Shown: positions 11,499-23,744 of the stretch, one piece after another | How the letters are laid out: each line of letters begins with the position of its first letter | Position numbering within the stretch: position 1 is the stretch's first letter | Program-made: the position numbers and the translations under genes | The notes under the pieces: generated by a model | What the model was told of the DNA's origin: nothing | What the model saw: the letters and a program-made list of their open reading frames with translations, nothing else | The model's database searches: none | Assembly: GCA_903869265.1 (NCBI GenBank) | Contig: CAIPYE010000017.1 | Location: 1-64,000 of the forward strand | Reading direction: 5' to 3' | DNA: 64,000 nucleotides | From: an uncultured delta proteobacterium | GTDB taxonomy: Bacteria > Desulfobacterota > Desulfobulbia > Desulfobulbales > Desulfurivibrionaceae

Positions 11499-11903
11499 TT
11501 ACTTTTTGGCGGGCCGTTTGGCGGAAACAGATTTTACAGCTTTTGCCGCCGGTTTCTTGGCTGCCGCAGGCTTGGCAGCAGCTTTTTTGGCGGGAGCCTT
11601 TGCCGCAGGCTTAGCAGCAGTTTTTGGCTTGGCCGCCGGTTTTTTTGTTGCTACAGCCTTTTTCGCCGCAGGCTTGGCAGCGGCTTTTTTGGCGGGAGCC
11701 TTTGCCGCAGGCTTAGCAGCAGTTTTTGGCTTGGCAGCGGCTTTTTTTGTTGCTACAGCCTTTGATGCAGTTTTTGCCGCAGGCTTGGCAGCGGCTTTCT
11801 TGGCGGGAGCCTTTGCCGCAGTTTTTGGTTTGGCTGCGGCTTTTTTGGCCAGCGCTGGTTTTGCTGTTTTCTTCGGTGCAACTTTTCCTGTAACCTTTGA
11901 CAT
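11499..11903 (-). CDS. Histone H1-like Lys/Ala/Pro-rich protein (134 aa)
   Basis: After a short start (MSKVTGKVAPKK) the protein is almost wholly Lys, Ala and Pro in AAAKPKTAAK / KAPAKKAAAKPA units, like the C-terminal tail of eukaryotic H1 and bacterial AlgP, HctA/HctB and related nucleoid proteins. It is expected to bind and condense DNA through charge alone; there is no globular domain. The start at 11903 is chosen because GGGAGGAAG lies correctly upstream; a start at 11969 would add 22 unrelated residues. The gene consists largely of near-identical repeats. An intrinsic terminator follows. Confidence 0.9.
   Translation of the reverse strand: MSKVTGKVAPKKTAKPALAKKAAAKPKTAAKAPAKKAAAKPAAKTASKAVATKKAAAKPKTAAKPAAKAPAKKAAAKPAAKKAVATKKPAAKPKTAAKPAAKAPAKKAAAKPAAAKKPAAKAVKSVSAKRPAKK
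11578..11830 (-). repeat. Near-identical tandem repeats inside the histone-like gene
   Basis: The segment beginning CGGGAGCCTTTGCCGCAG recurs at about 11591, 11693 and 11804, giving spacings of 102 and 111 bases (34 and 37 codons). The matches extend over tens of bases and include synonymous positions, so the repetition is at DNA level and not only in the protein. Confidence 0.8.
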
Positions 11904-12249
11904 TCTCACTTCCTCCCTTAGTTTGGTTCTCTCCTTCTTCGGTTTCGGAATATGTAATTTGCTATGCACCGCTGCGTGGATATTTTTGGGTTTACCAGAA
12001 CGTGTCCGGTCATGACCACACTTGGCACAGAGGCAATTGTATCTTTTTGGCTCTATTATCGCATTGTTATCTCTGTTTTATTCCAAGATGTCGAGCATTT
12101 TTTCCAAGAAATACGGTGATAGCCCTTGTTTTTTTTATTTCGTCCATTTCAAGGCGAATGTTAATCCGTTGTTCCTCTTTTGAAAACAGACCGCAAGATC
12201 CTTGTCGCAGTAAGCCCCGCAGCTTTTTGTGCAAGCGAGTTATCTTGCA
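11904..12249. other. Intergenic stretch between gap and the histone-like gene
   Basis: This AT-richer stretch of 346 bases has no convincing open frame. The part next to 11903 holds the ribosome site (GGGAGGAAG) of the histone-like gene, and its promoter must lie further inside, but I see no clear -35/-10 pair. The gap stop codon is at the other end. A dedicated terminator for gap is not evident. Confidence 0.5.
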
Positions 12250-18308: not shown

Positions 18309-20057
18309 TCAGGCGCGATTATTCCCGTGCATGCCGACCCAGAGCCCCAGAAAAAAATGGCGGGCATTGGTGCCCAGTGAACGGGTCCGGTAGCCGCCCT
18401 CCTGCACGATCAACGTGGGCAACCGCAGGCTGCCGAGCATTCTGCCGTTTTCCTCGAAATCCGCAGCAGAGAAGGACCAAGTGCCGGTAGGGTCATTTTT
18501 TGCCGTATCAAGCCCCAGAGCCACCACCAGAAAATGCGGCTTAAAGGCGCGGATCCGCTTAAGCGCCTTGTCCAGGACCGGTCGATAGGCTGCGCCGCCC
18601 AGCGTTTCCGGCAAGGGGTAGTTGCGATTAAACCCCTTACCGGCCTCCTCCCCCACCTCATCACTGAAGCCGGAAAAATAAGGATAGGCAAAGCTAGGAT
18701 GCCCGTGGATCGAGAGAGTCAGCACATCGTTGCGCTGATAAAAGATATCCTGGGTGCCGTTGCCGTGGTGGTAATCGATGTCAAGCACCGCCACCCTGCC
18801 CTCGCGGCTAAGATAATTGGCGGCGGTCCCGGCTGAATTGAAATAGCAGAAGCCGCCGAAAACCCGGCTTTCCGCATGATGGCCCGGAGGCCGGACCAGG
18901 GCATAGGCCAGGCGGTAGCCTTTTTCAAGGAGTTTTGCCGCAGTCAAGGCGCAGTCCACCGCGCCCTTGGCTGCCTTGTAGGCGTTGCGGTTCAAAGGGG
19001 TGAAGGTGTCGATGCAGTAGTAGCCGGCCCGGACCGGCAGATCCTTGGGCGGTCTGGCCGCGTTGCGGATGGGAAAGACATAGGGGTATACCGATTTGCC
19101 GGGCTCAAGGTTGGTGCAGACCTGTTTGAGATATTCGACAAATTTTGGGTCATGGACCTTTTTGATGTGCTGCTCGGAAAAATGGCGGGCCGGCATGCGC
19201 TCGAACAACCCGGTGGGCTCGATCCCCTTGAGAATGGAGGCAATGCGCACCGGTGCCTCCACATAGCCCCGTTCCCGGATATGGTGGATATCGTGCTTTT
19301 CATTGACAACCAGCGCGATCAATTTTTCCAGGGATTTGACGGGATGCACCTTGATCGGCTCTTTCTTGATATAGCGGGGGGCACGGCGCAGCACCGGATC
19401 GTCGGTAAACGATTCCACCACCATATTGATATAGCCCTTGGGGCAATCCTTTCCGTACTTGCGGATGAGGATGGCGCGCACGACCTCGCGGGCCCTGTCC
19501 CTGGCAAGGGGCTTGGAGCTGCCGAGGTCGTCGTAGACCAGATAGGGCGGGCAATCGTATTCGGGTTTGAGCGGTGTTTCATAGGCGGTATTGATGATGG
19601 GCAAGGCCCCGTAGCGCTCGTAGAACCTGAGCCGCGCCCGGCTTTGCTTTACCGTGGCCGGGTCGCGGCAAATTTTTTGCTCATCGGGCAGGCATTCCAT
19701 GAAGATCCCTTCATCGCCGAGGGAGCGGGCCTCCTCGCGGACCCGTGCGTACAGGGCGCCGCCGATGCCGCTGGCTGCGGCTTTCGGGTCCACGGAGATG
19801 AAGTCGAGAAAGCAGAAGGAAAGGTCCGGGGCATGGTTGAGCAGGGCAAAACCTTTGACCCGAGGCTTCATGTCGTCGGCAACGAAAAGAATGGTGCGGA
19901 AGCGGTACTTCAGCGGGTTGGAAAGCTTCTGGGCAAGACTGTTGATCTCGTTTTCCGATAGCGCCGAGAACTGGCTGCGCAGGATTTGCTGCACCTGATC
20001 GATGGTTTCGTGGTCGATGGAGAGGGTGTCGTCGTAGATCCGGCGGATGCGAAACAT
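18309..20057 (-). CDS. GNAT acetyltransferase fused to a histone-deacetylase-family amidohydrolase (582 aa)
   Basis: The first 190 residues form a GNAT-like domain (FCFLDFISVDPKAAASGIGGAL, with the acetyl-CoA loop, and LRFYERYGALPI). From about residue 265 on lies an arginase/deacetylase fold: RPPGHHAESRVFGGFCYFN, DIDYHHGNGTQDIF, a metal Asp in LGLDTAKNDPTG, and EGGY with the catalytic Tyr. All zinc ligands are present. The PPGHHAE and GGFCYFN motifs are nearest to acetylpolyamine amidohydrolase. The start at 20057 has AAGGAG well placed. It is the last of five tightly packed genes. It probably adds and/or removes acetyl groups on a small amine. Confidence 0.9.
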   Translation of the reverse strand: MFRIRRIYDDTLSIDHETIDQVQQILRSQFSALSENEINSLAQKLSNPLKYRFRTILFVADDMKPRVKGFALLNHAPDLSFCFLDFISVDPKAAASGIGGALYARVREEARSLGDEGIFMECLPDEQKICRDPATVKQSRARLRFYERYGALPIINTAYETPLKPEYDCPPYLVYDDLGSSKPLARDRAREVVRAILIRKYGKDCPKGYINMVVESFTDDPVLRRAPRYIKKEPIKVHPVKSLEKLIALVVNEKHDIHHIRERGYVEAPVRIASILKGIEPTGLFERMPARHFSEQHIKKVHDPKFVEYLKQVCTNLEPGKSVYPYVFPIRNAARPPKDLPVRAGYYCIDTFTPLNRNAYKAAKGAVDCALTAAKLLEKGYRLAYALVRPPGHHAESRVFGGFCYFNSAGTAANYLSREGRVAVLDIDYHHGNGTQDIFYQRNDVLTLSIHGHPSFAYPYFSGFSDEVGEEAGKGFNRNYPLPETLGGAAYRPVLDKALKRIRAFKPHFLVVALGLDTAKNDPTGTWSFSAADFEENGRMLGSLRLPTLIVQEGGYRTRSLGTNARHFFLGLWVGMHGNNRA

Positions 20058-20059
20058 GG

Positions 20060-20533
20060 TCACAACTCCTTGAGGTAGATCACCTTGTCGTCGCCGTCCC
20101 GGTAAAAATCATGGAGAACGCAGGCCACCTGGTAGCCGTTTCTTTCATAAAAGTTGCGGGCCGGATCATAGCCCGGCGTGGAGGAGGTGTCCACGTAAAC
20201 CTTGGCCGACCCTTGGGCGCTCAGCTCCGTTTCCATCCGGGCAAGCAGCTGCCGACCTATCCCTTGTCTGCCCAAGGCCGGATCCACCGCCACCCAGTAC
20301 AGGTCGAAGCGGCGGTCGGTCATGGGGATATCCCCATAGCAGATAAAACCCACCACCCCCTGGTCCTCGCTCACCGCCACGAAAATGCAGTAATCGTTTT
20401 TTGCCGGGTCCAGGGTGTCGTCGATGACCTCGATGGCCACTGCCACCTCCTGGGCATTGAAATTATCCTGCTGCTCCACCAGCCTGAGAAGCTGGGCGCG
20501 GTCTTTTGCGGCAATGGGGCGGATGGTGATCAT
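20060..20533 (-). CDS. GNAT-family N-acetyltransferase (157 aa)
   Basis: A stand-alone GNAT: N-terminal IRPIAAKDRAQLLRLV, the acetyl-CoA pyrophosphate loop VDPALGRQGIGRQLL (near residue 88), and the C-terminal NFYERNGYQVACVLHDFYRDGDDK with its conserved Asn and Tyr. A role acetylating a small amine, amino acid or peptide is consistent; the acceptor is not predictable from sequence. Its start overlaps the stop of ATP-grasp B by four bases, and its stop is only three bases from the downstream deacetylase start. Given the KamA neighbour, an acetyl-beta-lysine (AblB-like) reaction is a reasonable hypothesis. Confidence 0.9.
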   Translation of the reverse strand: MITIRPIAAKDRAQLLRLVEQQDNFNAQEVAVAIEVIDDTLDPAKNDYCIFVAVSEDQGVVGFICYGDIPMTDRRFDLYWVAVDPALGRQGIGRQLLARMETELSAQGSAKVYVDTSSTPGYDPARNFYERNGYQVACVLHDFYRDGDDKVIYLKEL

Positions 20534-21531
20534 AGGGCGCCCCTCAAGGAAACCAACCGAACGAATTCCCCGATCATCTCCGTGTAACTCATCGCGCTTT
20601 CGGCCACGGCGGCGGGAAAACCGGCGTCCGGGCTCAGGCAGGGATTGGCGTTGATTTCAAGGATGGCAAGGCGACCCTGCTGGTCAAGGCGCAGGTCAAC
20701 CCTGGCGTAGTCGCGCAGGCCGAAGAGTCCGAAGCAGTTCTGGGCCATGTGGCGCATGGCCTGCTGCAAGGGTTCGGGCAGGTTGTCCGGGAAAATCCGC
20801 TGGGTGTGTTGGTACTCAAACGATTCCTCGTCCCATTTGGCCTTGTAGCTGACGATCCGGTGCAGATCGGTGGGAAAGCCGGAAAAATCAATCTCTGCCA
20901 GGGGCATGACCTGTGCCTGGGGATAGCCGAAGAGCGAAACGTTGAACTCGCGGCCGGCGATATACTCTTCCACCAGGATGGCGCCGTAGCGGGCGTAGAG
21001 CTCTTCCAGCCGGGGCAGCAGATCACCGCTGCTTTCGACCACCGATTCCTGCTCGATGCCGATGGAGGCGTCCTGGAAGCGGGGCTTGAGGATCACCGGA
21101 AAATTGAGGCCCGCAGGCCGCAGCACCTCGTTGCCATCATAGAGAAAGAAGGGTGGCGTGCGCAGGCCCGAGGCGGCGAGCAGCCTTTTCACCGTGAGTT
21201 TGTCTGTGGAGAGAAGCAGTGCCATGGCCGAGGAGCCGGTGAAGGGAATCCCCAGCAGCTCAAGCACCGCGGCCGGGTGGCCTATGAGGAGCGGGTCTTC
21301 GTCCACCGACTCGCAGAGGTTGAAAGCGATGTCGATTTCCGCTGCCTGGACCTGGCTGACAAAGCGGCCCAGATCGCGGGTAAATGGGATGCGCACATGG
21401 GGCTGGCCCAGTTCGTTGAGTGCACCTTCGATACCCTCCACCTGGGCCAGGACATCGGCGGATGATTCCCAGTTCGGTTCGCCTTTGGGGATCGGCTGGT
21501 TGTGGATGATGCCGACTTTTAGGTGTTTCAT
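20530..21531 (-). CDS. D-Ala-D-Ala-ligase-like ATP-grasp protein B (333 aa)
   Basis: ATP-grasp fold of the Ddl group: pre-ATP-grasp domain with VGIIHNQPIPKG (residues 6-17) and AFNLCESVDEDPLLIGHP, then the DKLTVKRLLAASGLRTP segment. The ATP-binding part has PVILKPRFQDASIGI, LVEEYIAGREFNVSLFG and the Mg-binding end RVDLRLDQQGRLAILEINANPC. The N-terminal NxxCE pattern is not that of peptidoglycan Ddl, and the enzyme is paired with a paralogue, so cell-wall D-Ala-D-Ala synthesis is unlikely. It probably joins a carboxyl group to an amine with ATP. It overlaps both neighbours by four bases. Confidence 0.9.
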   Translation of the reverse strand: MKHLKVGIIHNQPIPKGEPNWESSADVLAQVEGIEGALNELGQPHVRIPFTRDLGRFVSQVQAAEIDIAFNLCESVDEDPLLIGHPAAVLELLGIPFTGSSAMALLLSTDKLTVKRLLAASGLRTPPFFLYDGNEVLRPAGLNFPVILKPRFQDASIGIEQESVVESSGDLLPRLEELYARYGAILVEEYIAGREFNVSLFGYPQAQVMPLAEIDFSGFPTDLHRIVSYKAKWDEESFEYQHTQRIFPDNLPEPLQQAMRHMAQNCFGLFGLRDYARVDLRLDQQGRLAILEINANPCLSPDAGFPAAVAESAMSYTEMIGEFVRLVSLRGAL

Positions 21532-22526
21532 TCCGTAAGCCCGAGGCGGGCAATGGCGGCGGCAACGATTTCGCTGAGCAGTTCCTGGTAGGAGATGCCG
21601 TACTTGGTGGCGATGATGCAGAGGTCGGAATGCTCAGGGTGCAGTCCGGCCAGGGGGTTGACCTCGATGAAATTCGGAATGCCGTTGGCGTCGGAGCGCA
21701 GATCCACCCGGCCGCCGTCCCGGCAGTCCAGAGCATGCCAGGCGTCCAGAGCGGTTGCCTCTGCCTGCCGGGCTTCGGCATCGTCCACCTTTCGGTATTC
21801 CACCAGCTCATCGCAGAATTCCTTGTTGTGGTACGAATAGACCTCCGGCTCGGAGTTAGGCAAAAGGACCACCTCCATCACCCCGATGCTCCGGGCATTC
21901 TTGCCGTTGCCCACGATGCCCACGGTGAACTCCCTCCCCGGCAGATAGGATTCCACCAGCACAGGCTGGTGGAAGGTTTGCAAAAGATCGGCGCAGACCA
22001 CATGCAACTCTTCGGCGGTGCTGATCTTGGAGGCCGGGGTTACGCCCTTGCCGGTGCCCTCGGCCACGGGTTTGGCAAAGACCGGATAGGGCAGCGCCAC
22101 GTCGGCGACATCCCCCATGGACTTCACCACACCAAAGGCGGGGGTGGGGATGCCGAGATCCCGGACCACATGCTTGCTCATGCCTTTGTGCAGGGTCAGC
22201 CCCAAGACCAGAGGGTCTGAAAAGACGTAAGGAATTCGGTGCGCCTCCAGCAAGGCGGGCACCAGGGCTTCCCGGCCAAAGCCGTACAACCCTTCGCAGA
22301 TATTAAAGACCAGATCCCAGCGTTCGCCAGCGAGAAGCCGGGGCATGAGGCCCATGAAGTTGCCGATGGGCACGGTTTCATGGCCCATGTCCCGCAGGGC
22401 TTGGTCAATGGCCGCGATGGTCGATTCCCGGTCGAACTCGGCGGTTTCTTCTTCTCCGTAGCCTGCTGCCAGATAGTCGCTCCGCAGGTCGTAGGTTATT
22501 CCGATGAGCATGGATTTTCCTTGCAC
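21528..22526 (-). CDS. D-Ala-D-Ala-ligase-like ATP-grasp protein A (332 aa)
   Basis: A paralogue of protein B with the same domain order: IGITYDLRSDYLAAGYGEEE at the start, VFNICEGLYGFGREALVPALLE, HKGMSKHVVRDLGIPTPAF, then PVFAKPVAEGTGKGVTP, LVESYLPGREFTVGIVG and GRVDLRSDANGIPNFIEVNPLAGLHP, which holds the metal ligands. The FNICEG and EVNPLAGLHP motifs are those of Ddl-related enzymes outside peptidoglycan synthesis. It follows kamA directly and overlaps the start of protein B by four bases. Two different ligases suggest a two-step peptide assembly, or one active and one divergent partner (inference). Confidence 0.9.
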   Translation of the reverse strand: MQGKSMLIGITYDLRSDYLAAGYGEEETAEFDRESTIAAIDQALRDMGHETVPIGNFMGLMPRLLAGERWDLVFNICEGLYGFGREALVPALLEAHRIPYVFSDPLVLGLTLHKGMSKHVVRDLGIPTPAFGVVKSMGDVADVALPYPVFAKPVAEGTGKGVTPASKISTAEELHVVCADLLQTFHQPVLVESYLPGREFTVGIVGNGKNARSIGVMEVVLLPNSEPEVYSYHNKEFCDELVEYRKVDDAEARQAEATALDAWHALDCRDGGRVDLRSDANGIPNFIEVNPLAGLHPEHSDLCIIATKYGISYQELLSEIVAAAIARLGLTE

Positions 22527-23744
22527 TCAGCTTGCCCGGCCTGCCGCGCCGATCACATCGGGGTAGCGGTAGACCTTGCCTTCGTAGTTTCGGAGCAAAA
22601 GATCGTTGCCCTCGCGGCCGACCACGGTTTCCGGGATGAGCGGAATCTTGCCGCCGCCGCCGGGAGCGTCGATCACATAGTTGGGCACGGCATAGCCGGT
22701 GGTATGGCCGCGCAGCCCTTGGTAGATCTCCAGCCCTTTCGAAACCGGGGTGCGGAAATGGGCCGAGCCGATGATGGGGTCGCACTGGTACAGGTAATAG
22801 GGCTTGACCCGGATCTTGACCAGCCCGTGCATGAGCTGCCGCATGGTCTCCACGGAATCGTTGATCCCGGAGAGAAGCACGGTCTGGCTGCCCAGGGGGA
22901 TGCCAGCGTCGGCGAGCATGGTGCAGGCCCTGGTCGCCTCCGGGGTCAGTTCGTCGGGGTGGGTGCAGTGGATGCTCATCCACAGCGGGTGGTGTTTTTT
23001 CAGCATGGCGACCAGCTCAGGGGTGATGCGCTGGGGCAGGACCATGGGGGCCTTGGTGCCGATGCGGATCATCTCCACATGGGGGATCTGGCGCAGACGG
23101 CCAAGCAGCCAGTCCAACTGCTCATCGGCCATGGTCAGCGGATCGCCGCCGGAAAGGAGCACGTCGCGGATGGCTGGATTGGAGGCGATGTAGGCAATGG
23201 CTTTCTGCCAGCGGGCCGGGCTGTGGCTTTTGCGGCGGCCAACCATCCGGGAGCGGGTGCAGTAACGGCAGTAGCTCGAACAGTAGTCGGTGACCAGAAA
23301 GAGGACCCGGTCGGGATAGCGGTGTATCAGGCCGGGCACCGGGGAGTGATTGTCCTCGCCCAGGGGGTCGTGTTCCTCGCCTTGGGAAACCAAGAGTTCG
23401 TTGACCACCGGCACCATGGTGCGCCTCAGCGGCTGCTTCGGCTCGTCAGGGGAAATGAGGCTGGCATAATAGGGGGTAATGGCCAGGGGCAGGGTGGCGC
23501 CATTAAAGGCCATGGCCTGCCGCTCGCTATCCGAGAGGTCGATGAGCTTGCCGAGTTTTTTGAGGCTGGTGATGCGGTTACGGAGCTGCCAGTGCCAGTC
23601 GTGCCAGTCATCATCTGTGGCGAGGGGGAAATGGCGTTGGCGGAAGGTGAGGGAGGGAACTTGGCCGGGAAACGGAAAGGCAGGACTGGGGCAACACCCT
23701 GGAGGTTCCTCTTGCTCCTCAATCTGCTCAACTTTTTGTTGCAT
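22527..23744 (-). CDS. kamA: Radical SAM lysine 2,3-aminomutase-like protein (KamA family, 405 aa)
   Basis: The 4Fe-4S cluster motif is YCSSYCRYCTR (CxxxCxxC) near residue 158. PLP-radical aminomutase hallmarks follow: DVLLSGGDPLTM, SIHCTHPDELTPEA, YYLYQCDPIIG...HFRTP and VIDAPGGGGKIPLIPE. In the family, two Asp residues in these last two motifs bind the lysine side-chain amine, while glutamate-using relatives carry Lys and Asn there. Both Asp are kept here, which favours lysine to beta-lysine (the residue assignment is from memory of the literature). It is the first gene of the operon, with a good promoter about 110 bases upstream. Length is normal for the family. Confidence 0.9.
   Translation of the reverse strand: MQQKVEQIEEQEEPPGCCPSPAFPFPGQVPSLTFRQRHFPLATDDDWHDWHWQLRNRITSLKKLGKLIDLSDSERQAMAFNGATLPLAITPYYASLISPDEPKQPLRRTMVPVVNELLVSQGEEHDPLGEDNHSPVPGLIHRYPDRVLFLVTDYCSSYCRYCTRSRMVGRRKSHSPARWQKAIAYIASNPAIRDVLLSGGDPLTMADEQLDWLLGRLRQIPHVEMIRIGTKAPMVLPQRITPELVAMLKKHHPLWMSIHCTHPDELTPEATRACTMLADAGIPLGSQTVLLSGINDSVETMRQLMHGLVKIRVKPYYLYQCDPIIGSAHFRTPVSKGLEIYQGLRGHTTGYAVPNYVIDAPGGGGKIPLIPETVVGREGNDLLLRNYEGKVYRYPDVIGAAGRAS

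Follow-up and report, generated by a model that had tools for sequence, protein, structure and literature searches.

We find that a single bacterial gene encodes, in one chain, a GNAT domain followed by a zinc deacetylase domain, both with conserved catalytic residues, and that this fusion is tied genetically to four other genes, which encode a lysine 2,3-aminomutase-type enzyme, two ATP-grasp ligases and a free-standing GNAT. Both domains are of known kinds, and it is their combination that is new. The operon is a stronger clue to function than the domain pairing, and the earlier sequence-only reading of this DNA had named it only in passing. Our preferred interpretation, to which we give a probability of about 0.5, is that the fusion would act in an accessory capacity, in tailoring or turnover, by editing how a beta-lysine-derived small molecule built by the ATP-grasps is acetylated.

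In the window (i.e., the whole 64,000-nucleotide stretch of DNA that was analysed), the fusion is the last of five minus-strand genes, in the order aminomutase, ATP-grasp 1, ATP-grasp 2, GNAT and fusion, and because adjoining genes overlap by 4 bases or abut, the five fit one operon. The ORF list and the translation place the ATG of the fusion gene at 20057 and its stop at 18309 on the minus strand; the sequence-only reading had these coordinates exactly right but left the strand unstated. The features are as follows.

22527..23744, minus strand: lysine 2,3-aminomutase-type radical SAM enzyme, 405 aa (Pfam, NCBIfam; alignment)
21528..22526, minus strand: ATP-grasp ligase 1, D-Ala-D-Ala-ligase-like, 332 aa (Pfam, NCBIfam; alignment)
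20530..21531, minus strand: ATP-grasp ligase 2, D-Ala-D-Ala-ligase-like, 333 aa (Pfam, NCBIfam; alignment)
20060..20533, minus strand: free-standing GNAT, 157 aa (Pfam; alignment; homologous to the GNAT domain of the fusion by blastp and hhalign)
18309..20057, minus strand: GNAT-deacetylase fusion gene, 582 aa (ORF and translation; 80 full-length relatives)
19563..20057, minus strand: GNAT domain of the fusion, residues 1-165 (Pfam; AlphaFold model; Foldseek PDB)
19761..19790, minus strand: predicted acetyl-CoA pyrophosphate loop, residues 90-99, ending SGIG (G97 and G99 in 80/80)
19617..19625, minus strand: FYE, residues 145-147, on helix alpha4, with Tyr146 as candidate general acid (Tyr146 in 80/80; model)
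19263..19562, minus strand: conserved linker or helical region, residues 166-265 (invariant L197, Y201, Y209, S216, H255 and H258)
18333..19262, minus strand: zinc deacetylase domain, residues 266-575 (Pfam; sequence and fold matches in the PDB to acetylpolyamine amidohydrolases)
18876..18881, minus strand: catalytic His-His, residues 393-394 (invariant in 80/80)
18756..18782, minus strand: DIDYHHGNG, residues 426-434, with zinc ligands D428 and H430 (invariant)
18507..18509, minus strand: zinc ligand D517 (invariant in 80/80)
18390..18401, minus strand: EGGY, residues 553-556, with catalytic Tyr556 (invariant in 80/80)

The presence of two domains in one polypeptide, as the sequence-only reading had proposed, is borne out by Pfam, by the fold models (pLDDT 85 and pTM 0.81 for the full-length fusion) and by relatives at 80 loci, mostly from metagenome-assembled genomes, that are 55–93% identical over essentially their full length. 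Among 296 Desulfobacterota genomes, the deacetylase clade is always fused, with the same GNAT half in 33 of 33 strong matches. Because of these full-length relatives and the constant GNAT half, we could rule out that the fusion is a product of chance or a frame artefact. The pairwise identities of the GNAT and deacetylase halves correlate at 0.72, a value reached in 0 of 500 permutations, and this indicates a shared history of the kind that an old fusion would leave.

The labels of the 80 loci include Thermodesulfobacteriota, Pseudomonadota, Bacteroidota, Spirochaetota, Planctomycetota, Chloroflexota, Nitrospirota, Acidobacteriota, Synergistota, Bacillota, Fibrobacterota, Ignavibacteriota and several candidate phyla, and a Rhodospirillaceae is among the named strains with the fusion, as are Dasania sp. 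GY-MA-18, Pseudodesulfovibrio pelocollis SB368 and an Ancylomarina sp., the last three of which are cultured and have all five genes. One of the 80 is a nanoarchaeal bin, which may be a binning error. Since the phyla interleave in the tree of relatives, horizontal spread of the fusion is suggested. We found no plasmid record that holds most of the fusion. An analogous pairing is on Rhizobium plasmid pCB3171_2 (L126, 6582-8110), where adjoining GNAT and superfamily deacetylase genes overlap next to an aminotransferase gene, with biotin-carboxylase-like genes close by; unlike in the fusion, the two are separate genes, and no lysine aminomutase is annotated in that stretch.

The partner genes point to lysine chemistry and amide ligation. 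Aminomutase residues R164, D322, D359 and K366 align with Arg134, Asp293, Asp330 and Lys337 of lysine 2,3-aminomutase (LAM; PDB 2A5H). Across 41 aligned aminomutases, D322 is kept in 40, as is D359, which falls in a gap in one. According to published work on LAM and glutamate aminomutase, the two aspartates that match Asp293 and Asp330 mark lysine as the substrate. A lysine 2,3-aminomutase and a GNAT are also what this set shares with the AblA/AblB pathway to N-epsilon-acetyl-beta-lysine, but the present set adds two ATP-grasps and a deacetylase, its aminomutase scores 494.6 bits against the NCBIfam AblA equivalog, under the cut-off of 525.4 (the match stops at model position 359 of 417), and no match to TIGR03827, the AblB acetyltransferase, was found in the genome of the window. 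A second KamA-family aminomutase (L085, 1486-2535, G000:C1), 52% identical to that of the operon, is without ligases and adjoins a gene that we named UspA-like by eye.

Both ATP-grasps match Pfam Dala_Dala_lig_C and keep the core catalytic residues of D-Ala-D-Ala ligases (Ddl). They fall under the NCBIfam Ddl cut-offs, with 129 and 138 bits versus 243 for the best family, and the orthologs of ligase 1 form a group that stands well apart by score from ordinary Ddl and is tied to the aminomutase. The free-standing GNAT is homologous to the GNAT domain of the fusion (27% identity, E = 8.6e-7; hhalign probability 95.5%), and because of this homology we suggest that the two would have related acceptors.

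That the fusion belongs with these four genes is evident from their distribution. At least one ligase-like gene is present in the sampled stretch of 49 of the 80 fusion loci (doubtful in one, L021), and, with K for the aminomutase, A1 and A2 for the ligases, G for the GNAT and GH for the fusion, the five-gene set occurs in at least five orders: K-A1-A2-G-GH, K-A1-A2-GH-G, K-GH-A1-A2-G, GH-A1-A2-G-K and A1-A2-G-K-GH. In six relatives (L039, L040, L058, L059, L064 and L072), the fusion and the free GNAT make up a single GNAT-deacetylase-GNAT chain. We considered whether lone fusions prove independence from the operon and rejected this because the set is found elsewhere in the genome: of the 31 genomes whose fusion is isolated, 28 hold an intact ligase 1 ortholog (>300 bits, where other Ddl-like matches, ligase 2 included, score ~80–180), and it almost always neighbours an aminomutase gene. 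The remaining genomes are those of L010, which holds broken pieces of ligase 1, and of L014 and L036, which hold none.

Among the 296 Desulfobacterota genomes, ligase 1 is present in 111, the fusion in 33 and both in 32, an association with an odds ratio of 75 and a Fisher p of 2e-14, where the p value ignores shared ancestry. The sole fusion genome without ligase 1 (G098) is, by matching coordinates, the genome of L010, and in 14 of the 32 genomes with both, the two genes are no more than 6 kb apart. The fusion is not an obligatory step since 79 of the 111 genomes with ligase 1 are without it, and we found no unfused deacetylase of the same clade that replaces it in the set-bearing genomes of this phylum. 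Twenty loci that carry the set without the fusion are mostly the plain four-gene core. At one of them (L113), ligase 2 and the GNAT are fused into a 511-aa protein, and at L121 (6269-8299) two Ddl-like ligases form one 676-aa chain with neither an aminomutase nor a GNAT detected next to it, which may represent a variant pathway. Beyond close relatives, no further gene (a transporter, for instance) was found to join the set repeatedly; a MarC-like gene recurs at three loci, and four have a sigma-54-type regulator, each named by eye.

Two irregular loci were noted. A deacetylase-only version of 330 aa, without a GNAT, lies within a core cluster (L089, 9093-10085) in a genome that has the full fusion elsewhere (L017). 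In a KSB1 locus (L080, 7789-8862), the aminomutase frame has an in-frame stop, which is a pseudogene, a frameshift or an assembly error.

In the pathway that we propose, the aminomutase would make L-beta-lysine, the ATP-grasps would link one or two further amino acids to it through its carboxylate or its amine, and the free-standing GNAT would acetylate an amine, with the epsilon-amine as the likeliest target. The GNAT domain of the fusion would transfer acetyl from acetyl-CoA onto one amine, and the deacetylase would take acetyl off another position, or off the finished product when conditions change. A beta-lysine-containing amide would be expected because the lysine-type residues of the aminomutase and the Ddl-like residues of the ligases are kept, and small-molecule acetyl editing appears most likely because both catalytic sites of the fusion are kept in near-constant company with the four-gene set. 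An accessory tailoring or turnover role fits best because most core-bearing genomes are without the fusion. A fuller version, toward which we are tentative and rather doubtful, is that an undescribed and widespread pathway leads to a beta-lysine peptide-like metabolite whose acetylation pattern would be set by a chain with two opposed active acetyl sites, which may, for example, shift acetyl from one amine to another within a molecule or be toggled by the supply of acetyl-CoA.

The same genes can be arranged differently, with one GNAT shielding the epsilon-amine of lysine or beta-lysine, the ATP-grasps coupling the right amine and the deacetylase unmasking the product, while the fusion channels the intermediate. 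Such a scheme accounts for an acetylase and a deacetylase in one pathway with amide ligases, and arginine and lysine synthesis are precedents for acetyl protection, but we think it unlikely because deprotection by the clade of the fusion is not required for the core product where that clade is missing, as it is from the 79 genomes above.

In the GNAT half of the fusion, Pfam Acetyltransf_1 matches residues 49-127 with E = 6.5e-5. Because its score of 23.6 bits is little above the cut-off of 20.7, the assignment from sequence is real but weak, and the predicted fold carries the claim. An AlphaFold model of residues 1-265 (32-sequence alignment; mean pLDDT 86, pTM 0.81) has the element order b1-a1-a2-b2-b3-b4-a3-b5-a4-b6-b7, which is the GNAT topology, and the best 50 Foldseek PDB matches of this model include GNATs (2r7h, GCN5, PaiA, RimI and others) at probability 1.00. 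The GNAT-type N-terminus claimed by the sequence-only reading is thus upheld by the model, and a lack of the fold, named there as grounds for abandoning the claim, is not what the topology and Foldseek indicate. The GNAT half has no significant sequence relative in the PDB, even with a profile, the best acetyltransferase being a putative streptothricin acetyltransferase at a nonsignificant E = 0.04.

In GNATs, GxG holds the pyrophosphate of CoA, the thiolate receives its proton from a tyrosine on alpha4, and the base can be an acidic residue of b4. The fusion shares the fold, the GxG loop and the alpha4 tyrosine with the superfamily (RimI, PaiA, GCN5), and differs from it by the loss of the first residue of the Q/R-x-x-G-x-G motif and by the fused deacetylase. 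When the acetyl-CoA loop (Q/R-x-x-G-x-G/A) is inspected, as the sequence-only reading had advised, GxG is present in 80 of 80 relatives and the Q/R position is not kept, being mostly T, A, P or S; therefore acetyl transfer is possibly weak, or another acyl-CoA is used. The invariant residues of this half are G97, G99, Y103, E121, P124, D125, R142, F145, Y146, E147 and G150, and position 85, which lies on strand b4, holds Asp or Glu in 79 of 80. The lost Q/R residue and a Pfam score barely above cut-off would suit a GNAT domain that transfers no acetyl and acts as a sensor of acetyl-CoA or amine, or as a substrate-recognition module for the deacetylase. We regard this as improbable, and the suggestion of a GNAT fold used only for binding is disfavoured, since GxG, Tyr146, Glu121, Asp125 and Arg142 are invariant, position 85 is acidic in all but one relative, and a plain scaffold has no need of the alpha4 tyrosine.

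The deacetylase half is the clearer of the two by sequence, with a Pfam Hist_deacetyl match at residues 266-569 (E = 8e-75). The complete zinc deacetylase described in the sequence-only reading, with HH, DxDxHHGNG and EGGY, holds across the family: RPPGHH (389-394), DIDYHHGNG (426-434), D517 and EGGY (553-556) are invariant in the 80 relatives, as are H393, H394, D426, D428, H430, D517 and Y556 individually, with D428, H430 and D517 as the Asp, His and Asp zinc ligands. The full-length model is nearest to the acetylpolyamine amidohydrolases 6PHR, 9GKZ, 3MEN and 3Q9B, in agreement with the sequence search. With these enzymes (6PHR, 9GKZ and 3Q9B; cluster 4 of PMC11532494), the fusion shares the arginase-deacetylase fold, 33–38% identity over residues 266-571, the zinc and catalytic residues, the RPP and EGGY motifs and the L2-loop arginine. 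It differs from them in its N-terminal GNAT, its lysine-aminomutase operon setting and the replacement of Glu106, Glu117 and PIS. Glu117 of the Mycoplana ramosa enzyme, a polyamine-recognition residue in polyamine deacetylases, aligns with F352 (80/80). Glu106 and the PIS gatekeeper of that enzyme, which PMC11532494 gives as specificity features of bacterial polyamine deacetylases, align with residue 341, mostly P, S or A, and with PTG (80/80), respectively. R331 (80/80) matches Arg95, one partner in the Arg95-Asp163 dimer salt bridge of the L2 loop; where Asp163 would align, most relatives have R or K, and E396 (80/80) is nearby.

Because the replacements at polyamine-recognition positions are invariant, we suggest that the deacetylase of the fusion has a different, conserved substrate. 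The earlier label of acetylpolyamine amidohydrolase type stands for fold and ancestry but not for the residues that recognize polyamines. A polyamine acetylase and deacetylase with no relation to beta-lysine would fit the nearest solved structures and the retained L2-loop arginine, yet it is quite improbable given those replacements and a set with no recurring polyamine genes. A switch in which the fusion would both place and remove acetyl on the lysines of proteins, e.g., the enzymes of its own operon, is the most improbable alternative. In some bacteria, protein lysines are substrates of GNATs and of deacetylases from this superfamily. Some peptides are also deacetylated by one acetylpolyamine amidohydrolase from the same cluster (PMC11532494). 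Against such a switch, the fusion is strictly tied to a predicted small-molecule amino-acid pathway and is joined to the pathway GNAT in six relatives. Two more deacetylase-superfamily genes are present in the genome of the window, at G000:C17:64999-65859 (L081), ~1 kb past the end of the window, and at G000:C15:118157-119029 (L082).

For the small molecule that the fusion would edit, likeness to N-epsilon-acetyl-beta-lysine points to a neutral or zwitterionic compatible solute; this is the weakest step of our reading, with perhaps one chance in three. Beta-lysine derivatives are known solutes, and sodium riboswitches can control aminomutase genes (PMC9337991, PMC3543383). No sodium or c-di-AMP riboswitch was found in the window or near 18 other sampled loci, and in one locus only (L023) a mechanosensitive-channel-like gene, identified by eye from its sequence, lies 28 bases upstream of the fusion.

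We found no description of the fusion, of the five-gene set or of what the set produces in the open PubMed Central literature, and the main text of a survey of bacterial deacylases (PMC11532494) does not mention fused domains or a GNAT-deacetylase chain. Roughly one in three of the sampled Desulfobacterota genomes has ligase 1 of the four-gene core, and the five-gene set is found across many phyla; should its product be a solute or signal built as a beta-lysine peptide, a widely shared piece of the metabolism of anaerobes and of marine life has yet to be mapped. If one natural chain does both add and remove acetyl, with each site strictly selected, it would offer opposed activities in a form open to direct testing, and it would caution against homology-based polyamine- or histone-deacetylase names for such deacetylases. 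Elsewhere in the window, at 11499-11969 on the minus strand, a 156-aa protein consists nearly entirely of AAAKPKTAAKPAAK-type repeats and resembles bacterial histone-H1-like DNA-binding proteins.
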